From Dolichospermum sp. ST_sed8 (GTDB taxonomy: Bacteria > Cyanobacteriota > Cyanobacteriia > Cyanobacteriales > Nostocaceae), in NCBI GenBank assembly GCA_028658405.1, contig JAKOGY010000002.1:1-64000 (forward strand): a stretch of 64,000 bases of DNA. Direction: 5' to 3'. Positions 1 through 500 of the stretch are shown here, one piece after another (within the stretch, counting starts at the first letter, position 1; the number at the start of each line of letters is the position of its first letter). The notes beneath the pieces were generated by a model. It saw only the letters and a list, made by a program, of their open reading frames with translations, did not search any database and was not told the DNA's origin. The translations under genes and the position numbers were made by a program.

Positions 1-111
1 CTCTCTACAATGCCATTTTTGATCTGATAAAAGGTTAAAGACTTGTAATTGAGTTGCTCCTTGTCTAAATTGGGCTTTAATTGTCTCGACTAAATTTTGT
101 TGGTTTGTCAC
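1..111 (-). CDS. Partial gene overlapping the C-protein gene; possible restriction endonuclease N-terminus
   Basis: An open frame of 37 codons begins with GTG at 111-109 and runs off the left edge. The start overlaps the TGA of the upstream XRE gene in a GTGA arrangement, so translation is probably coupled. The visible N-terminus contains LLSDQKWHCRE. I do not recognise a family. In type II restriction-modification systems the gene directly behind a control (C) protein is usually the restriction endonuclease, and the C-box operator found upstream supports that reading. Function is inferred from position only, because the catalytic part lies outside the window. Confidence 0.5.
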   Translation of the reverse strand, partial: MTNQQNLVETIKAQFRQGATQLQVFNLLSDQKWHCRE

Positions 112-377
112 TGTATTCTATCGGCTTCGATTTCTATATTTTTGAGCAGAACGGACACACTAATGCCTAAGCCATCTGCAAGACTTACAAGAGCAGTCAG
201 GGAAGGATTCCTGACTCCACGTTCCACACCGGAAATGTATGTGCGGTCTAAGTTAGCGCGTAGTCCTAACTCCTCTTGTGAAATTCCTAACTCTGTTCTG
301 CGTTGTCTGACTAGATAACCCAAAGCATAAAGAATCTTTTGTTTTGATTCATTCATGTACTGATCTTGAGCGGTCAT
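108..377 (-). CDS. XRE-family regulator, probable restriction-modification controller (C) protein
   Basis: The 89-residue protein is a single XRE/HTH_3 helix-turn-helix domain. LGISQEELGLRANLDRTYIS forms the helix-turn-helix region and GVERGVRNPSL is the typical continuation. Size and architecture match controller proteins of type II restriction-modification systems, which are dimeric repressor-activators that time endonuclease expression. Two features support this over a generic XRE regulator: a GACT-N3-AGTC palindrome immediately upstream of the ATG, and a gene starting in overlap with its stop codon. A start at the second ATG (position 356) would remove seven residues and not affect the domain. 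No methyltransferase is visible in the window; it may lie to the left. Confidence 0.85.
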   Translation of the reverse strand: MTAQDQYMNESKQKILYALGYLVRQRRTELGISQEELGLRANLDRTYISGVERGVRNPSLTALVSLADGLGISVSVLLKNIEIEADRIQ

Positions 378-378
378 G

Positions 379-404
379 GACTATCAGTCTACGGACGATG
401 TGTC
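379..404 (-). promoter_or_regulatory. C-box operator of the controller protein
   Basis: A perfect inverted repeat GACTATCAGTC (379-389) fits the C-protein consensus GACT-N3-AGTC. A second, imperfect copy with outer arms GAC/GTC lies at 394-404, four bases away. Read on the minus strand this is GACACATCGTC, CGTA, GACTGATAGTC, ending two bases before the ATG. It closely resembles the paired operator sites described for Esp1396I-type controllers. The position implies autoregulation of the C gene and its downstream partner. Confidence 0.75.
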
Positions 405-500
405 ACATATCTGAAAAAATACATCTATTAAAAATAAAAGCCTTGATTATGCAAAAACCGGATATGATGATTGTGTTTTTTGCATGATTACTCAAATTTA

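Follow-up and report, generated by a model that had tools for sequence, protein, structure and literature searches.

The first 408 positions of the 64,000-nucleotide stretch of Dolichospermum sp. ST_sed8 DNA analysed here (the window) very probably represent the left-cut half of a type II restriction-modification cassette governed by a controller (C) protein, with the methyltransferase gene (M) situated outside the contig. A preliminary description of this DNA had read a restriction-modification system from the order of operator, C gene and overlapping endonuclease gene (R) – a reading now backed by PDB and PADLOC matches, by a methyltransferase gene at homologous loci and by conservation of the operator. 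Gene order, homology, the conservation of both operators and the association between enzyme carriage and ACATGT loss are established directly.

Systems of this kind are already known, and the useful part is the cassette together with its predicted site. The analysis adds a complete gene set, a second operator at M, a likely HNH/IceA-like nature for the enzyme, and a site that can be tested. For a cassette distributed among Nostocales and other cyanobacteria, it thus offers a testable assignment of the controller, both operators, the endonuclease, the methyltransferase and the predicted site RCATGY. Bloom-forming cyanobacteria are described as rich in such barriers (PMC8262939), and knowing the site would aid DNA transfer into these organisms.

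Table 1. Features of the cassette within the window
Feature	Position	Strand	Basis
Promoter-proximal C-box GACTGATAGTC (OR-like), GACTATCAGTC on the + strand	379..389	-	Perfect GACT-N3-AGTC
Promoter-distal C-box GACACATCGTC (OL-like)	394..404	-	Weaker box, 4 bases from the proximal box
Whole conserved operator ATGTGACACATCGTCCGTAGACTGATAGTC	379..408	-	17 loci; double box absent from shuffles
Predicted -35 element TAGACT, partly inside the proximal box	386..391	-	Spacing and conservation
Predicted -10 element CAAGAT, its end 6 bases upstream of the C start codon	363..368	-	17-bp spacer to -35
Controller (C) protein gene, 82 aa	108..356	-	PDB matches, PADLOC, start kept in relatives
5' end of the R gene, 37 codons, GTG start, overlapping the C stop codon	1..111	-	Comparison with the C187 copy

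The controller gene and its operator

The preliminary description reported an 89-residue XRE protein, and an open reading frame of that length is present on the minus strand (108-377), but its start is not conserved. The ATG at 377 reads ATA in a second copy of the cassette in the same genome (contig C187) and precedes the point at which the transcript is predicted to begin. In an alignment of 17 loci, orthologous C proteins mostly begin MNESK, MDESK or similar, corresponding to the ATG at 356. Judged from these comparisons, the true start of C is the ATG at 356, which gives an 82-amino-acid protein.

A PDB sequence search placed C.Esp1396I (E 1.8e-11, S52A variant 4fn3) and C.AhdI (3.3e-10) as the best solved-structure matches of C, and the PADLOC Control_protein model matched at 2.3e-16. 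Alignment further indicated that C retains T36, Y37 and R46, which contact DNA in C.Esp1396I, as well as the SQE activation patch (PMC4041747, PMC4824078). Another C.Esp1396I contact residue, S52, is Ala in C.

Both operator boxes of the preliminary description, the perfect one and the weaker one four bases off, were confirmed on the sequence (Table 1). A single perfect C-box is weak evidence, because the window holds 2 where 0.54 would be expected, and at least 2 turn up in 14 of 100 shuffles. The double box (GAC-N5-GTC, 4 bp, GAC-N5-GTC), on the other hand, occurs once in the window and in none of 100 dinucleotide shuffles. We also found ATGTGACACATCGTCCGTAGACTGATAGTC or a near variant in 17 homologous cyanobacterial loci, at a nearly equal distance from the C start and with unrelated sequence upstream of it. 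Within these sequence comparisons, conservation of the operator is strong evidence, unlike one perfect box.

The position of the -10 element is likewise maintained in an alignment of cyanobacterial loci. Because this element ends 6 bases before the ATG at 356, the C/R mRNA is probably leaderless; leaderless mRNAs are common among C genes (PMC4824078).

The closest parallel is Esp1396I, in which a C and R operon is convergent with M, a two-box operator serves C/R and a separate C-box lies at the M promoter (PMC4041747, PMC3758141). The cassette resembles it in its convergent C-R operon and two-box operator, the operators themselves being similar (ATGTGACTTATAGTC... vs ATGTGACACATCGTC...), and a box at the M promoter, described below, parallels OM. 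It differs in the box sequences, in the S52-to-Ala replacement and in an R that was unrelated in the searches made and is HNH/IceA-like here. PvuII-type C-REase fusions of cyanobacteria, including Anabaena (PMC3850674), are likewise C-controlled type II restriction-modification systems, but there C is fused to a PvuII-like R, whereas in the present cassette separate genes encode C and an HNH-like R.

By analogy with Esp1396I, C binding and regulation, as we infer them, would proceed as follows. After entry of the cassette, M would be made first from its own promoter. Weak leaderless C/R transcription would let C accumulate. The C/R promoter would then be activated by a C dimer bound at the distal box, and later repressed by a second dimer at the proximal box, with which the -35 element overlaps. 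The M-promoter box is probably also a target of C in this lineage, with the effect of lowering M.

The endonuclease and the methyltransferase

The GTGA overlap between the edge gene and the C stop codon, noted in the preliminary description, was confirmed at 111. From this start R runs off the contig, as base 1 of the window is base 1 of contig C222. The C187 copy shows 96% identity across the stretch searched and extends R to 242 codons before its own contig end – nearly the whole gene; its R is 95% identical to the window R across the 37 amino acids available.

Extending the edge gene through the C187 copy and complete orthologues showed that it belongs to a family of type II restriction enzymes already catalogued. 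Sphaerospermopsis kisseleviana NIES-73 and Anabaena sp. UHCC 0187 are among the carriers of a complete R. An orthologue 93% identical to R (L006) matched the PADLOC model PDLC03537 (REase_II, 'Type II restriction enzyme') over 239 of 244 positions with an E value of 5.8e-151. The suggestion of an enzyme of unfamiliar type therefore holds for Pfam and NCBIfam, where no model matched R above its cut-off, but not for PADLOC, where a model exists. Genes of the R type are present in many cyanobacteria, as well as in Ruminococcus, on two virome contigs and, in frameshifted form, in an acidimicrobial metagenome-assembled genome. A plasmid collection yielded only a distant partial match and a phage collection none, and viral scans with the L020 R and the L024 fragment gave no match.

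We next considered what kind of nuclease R is. R itself falls below the cut-off of PF05315 (IceA), at 12.9-13.0 bits vs 24 (E 0.075-0.079 at best). Its C-terminal half aligns with R1-type proteins, and two R1-type relatives (L020 and L036) pass the same cut-off (2.6e-6 and 2.9e-5; 24.2 and 27.6 bits vs 24). We scored the residues typical of PF05315, namely D-H, N and zinc-binding Cys pairs. Across 23 alignment rows of R and IceA-like proteins, D132, H133, N172, C179 and C182 are invariant, and C218 and C221 are conserved in over 90%. An AlphaFold model of R from a deeper alignment (pLDDT 77) places a strand (129-133), a second strand (160-164) and a helix (171-185) around these HNH-like residues.

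Because of the invariant residues and the modelled order of strand, strand and helix, R appears related to IceA and NlaIII. It is most likely an HNH (beta-beta-alpha-metal) endonuclease of this kind whose N-terminal domain is winged-helix-like, and it presumably works like the PF05315 enzymes although Pfam does not list it as a member. Searching PDB with the R sequence returned nothing useful, and Foldseek searches of PDB with two R models (pLDDT 59 and 77) gave no significant match; Cas9 HNH domains were among the weak ones. Compared with the CATG-cutting IceA1 and NlaIII (PF05315), R is homologous in its C-terminal half by way of the R1-type relatives and differs in its N-terminal part and in its predicted site, RCATGY rather than CATG.

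An adjacent methyltransferase, anticipated in the preliminary description, was found in relatives. In most intact cyanobacterial loci examined, a convergent gene for a C5 cytosine methyltransferase of about 397 amino acids (TIGR00675, 2.6e-57; PF00145, 2e-68) directly follows R. The genome under study contains two near-identical M copies, each cut off by the end of its contig (C234 or C33) at one and the same codon and open up to that point. This points to two cassette copies, with the assembly breaking within the repeated part. The R-M junction, which is unassembled in this genome, is deduced from synteny in relatives and from the four contig ends. Upstream of both M copies lies a small, toxin-antitoxin-like gene pair (L033:3917-4436 and L034:4617-5136; 96.5% identical).

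The second operator lies at M. In the two copies of this genome and in many relatives, the M start is preceded at a distance of about 43 bp by GTAGACTATATGTCAC or a closely similar box, set between unrelated flanks. This box is missing in L016, a locus without C, as well as in some loci that do contain C (e.g., L012, L014 and L023).

Prediction of RCATGY as the recognition site

The Nostoc systems NspI and NspHI, which act at RCATGY, reportedly combine C5 methyltransferases with an endonuclease whose C-terminus is NlaIII-like (Xu et al. 1998). The cassette may resemble them in its C5 methyltransferase, in an NlaIII-like endonuclease C-terminus and in its predicted site. We tested avoidance of RCATGY because the NlaIII/NspI literature pointed to it. 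The site was chosen after an exploratory avoidance table, in which RCATGY was among many depleted sites, and before genomes with R (R+) were compared with genomes without it (R-).

Pooled observed/expected ratios in seven R+ genomes were 0.00 for ACATGT and 0.04 for RCATGY; the corresponding values for four R- genomes were 0.58 and 0.47. Of the palindromes that were most depleted throughout the seven R+ genomes, these two had the largest R+/R- contrast. We then counted whole genomes, letting ACATGT stand for RCATGY and using TGTACA as the reversed control, across 210 Nostocaceae genomes, 203 of which (21 R+ and 182 R-) entered the R+/R- comparison. The 5.78-Mb genome under study contains 4 ACATGT and 936 TGTACA. 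Median ACATGT/TGTACA was 0.012 in R+ and 0.22 in R- genomes (p=1.3e-9), and the control site TGCGCA was not associated with R carriage among Nostocaceae genomes (p=0.69).

This comparison has limits: R carriage is phylogenetically clustered and the Nostocaceae genomes compared avoid many palindromes. The site assignment is confounded by descent, because R- genomes of the same genus, G062 among them, avoid ACATGT as strongly as R+ ones. An alternative is thus that the C-R-M system is real but recognizes another site, ACATGT having been lost through a different enzyme common in these lineages. The R- congeners, together with G197, G072 and G229, fit this alternative in avoiding ACATGT equally while lacking a close M homologue, as do five R+ genomes (G430, G455, G457, G472 and G495) with only moderate avoidance. 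The association across the family nonetheless persists when the genus of the window is removed (p=1.5e-6) and when R carriage is permuted within genera (p=0.02). G521, which has both R and M, is alone in its genus in being strongly depleted (0.006, against at least 0.044 in ten relatives), G472 has a frameshifted M alongside its weaker avoidance, and YCATGR is not depleted in either group, with observed/expected ratios of about 0.7 to 0.95. We regard this alternative as unlikely, with an appreciable residual chance.

Cleavage and the exact site are inferred: R probably recognizes RCATGY, and this site would most likely be protected by C5 methylation. Separately, five Nostocaceae genomes (G000, G022, G062, G101 and G392, the last of which carries R) show extreme depletion of many palindromes, including GRCGYC, TGCGCA, GCTAGC, CTGCAG and GTGCAC, with observed/expected ratios often below 0.1.

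Cassette copies and possible exchange of the endonuclease

In relatives, the cassette, spanning C operator to M promoter, occupies several chromosomal sites. Sequence shared between these sites starts with the C operator and stops close to the operator of M. Both C-R copies of the genome under study adjoin nirA, intact in one case and a deletion remnant in the other. The intact nirA-nrtP-narB cluster is on C187. At 671-1386, the window contains a nitrate-assimilation remnant in which nirA codons 1-107 are joined to narB codons 48-97 and 647-725.

The window copy might be a decaying duplicate without an active enzyme, leaving the C187 copy as the only working one. Its place beside the nirA/narB remnant would suit such decay, and damage to R is common: several relatives that still have M carry an interrupted or truncated R. 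Against this, the operator of the window copy is intact and both M copies are open to their contig ends. The two C genes differ at 13 synonymous and 1 nonsynonymous codons, which indicates purifying selection. We consider decay the less likely reading. Far less credible is that the XRE gene and the edge gene form a toxin-antitoxin pair or prophage repressor unit with no role in restriction-modification – an identity suggested by matches of the XRE protein, all below the cut-offs, to broad HTH profiles and to an NCBIfam model resembling HipB, and contradicted by the controller proteins that top its PDB matches, the PADLOC type II REase family of the edge gene, the C5 methyltransferase after R in most intact loci and the C-box operator conserved in 17 loci.

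Returning to the cassette as a C-controlled restriction-modification system, we observed that its endonuclease can differ between relatives. Two genomes (G398 and G528; loci L220 and L221) have the same C type, the same operator and an 86% identical M, with an R1-type IceA-like enzyme of about 334 amino acids in place of the 246-amino-acid enzyme. Tentatively, and at somewhat less than even chances, one framework of C, operator and M may accept different endonucleases that act on one target. The endonuclease would then be an exchangeable module within otherwise retained control and methylation, and such a framework with interchangeable endonucleases would be a useful case for the evolution of restriction-modification.

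Other arrangements were seen at individual loci. In the complete genome G243 (L066:8296-10190), R is interrupted by a 339-amino-acid open reading frame, a putative transposase, and M is open. The acidimicrobial locus (L024:5015-6712) has its frameshifted R relative immediately behind two frames that resemble an amino-methyltransferase (DPPY), not a C5 enzyme. At loci from Ruminococcus and virome contigs (L036:2037-5287 and L020:5008-8194), two related HNH-like endonuclease genes stand in tandem and are followed by a C5 methyltransferase gene; the tandem proteins of these Firmicute-type and virome loci possibly form a two-subunit enzyme.
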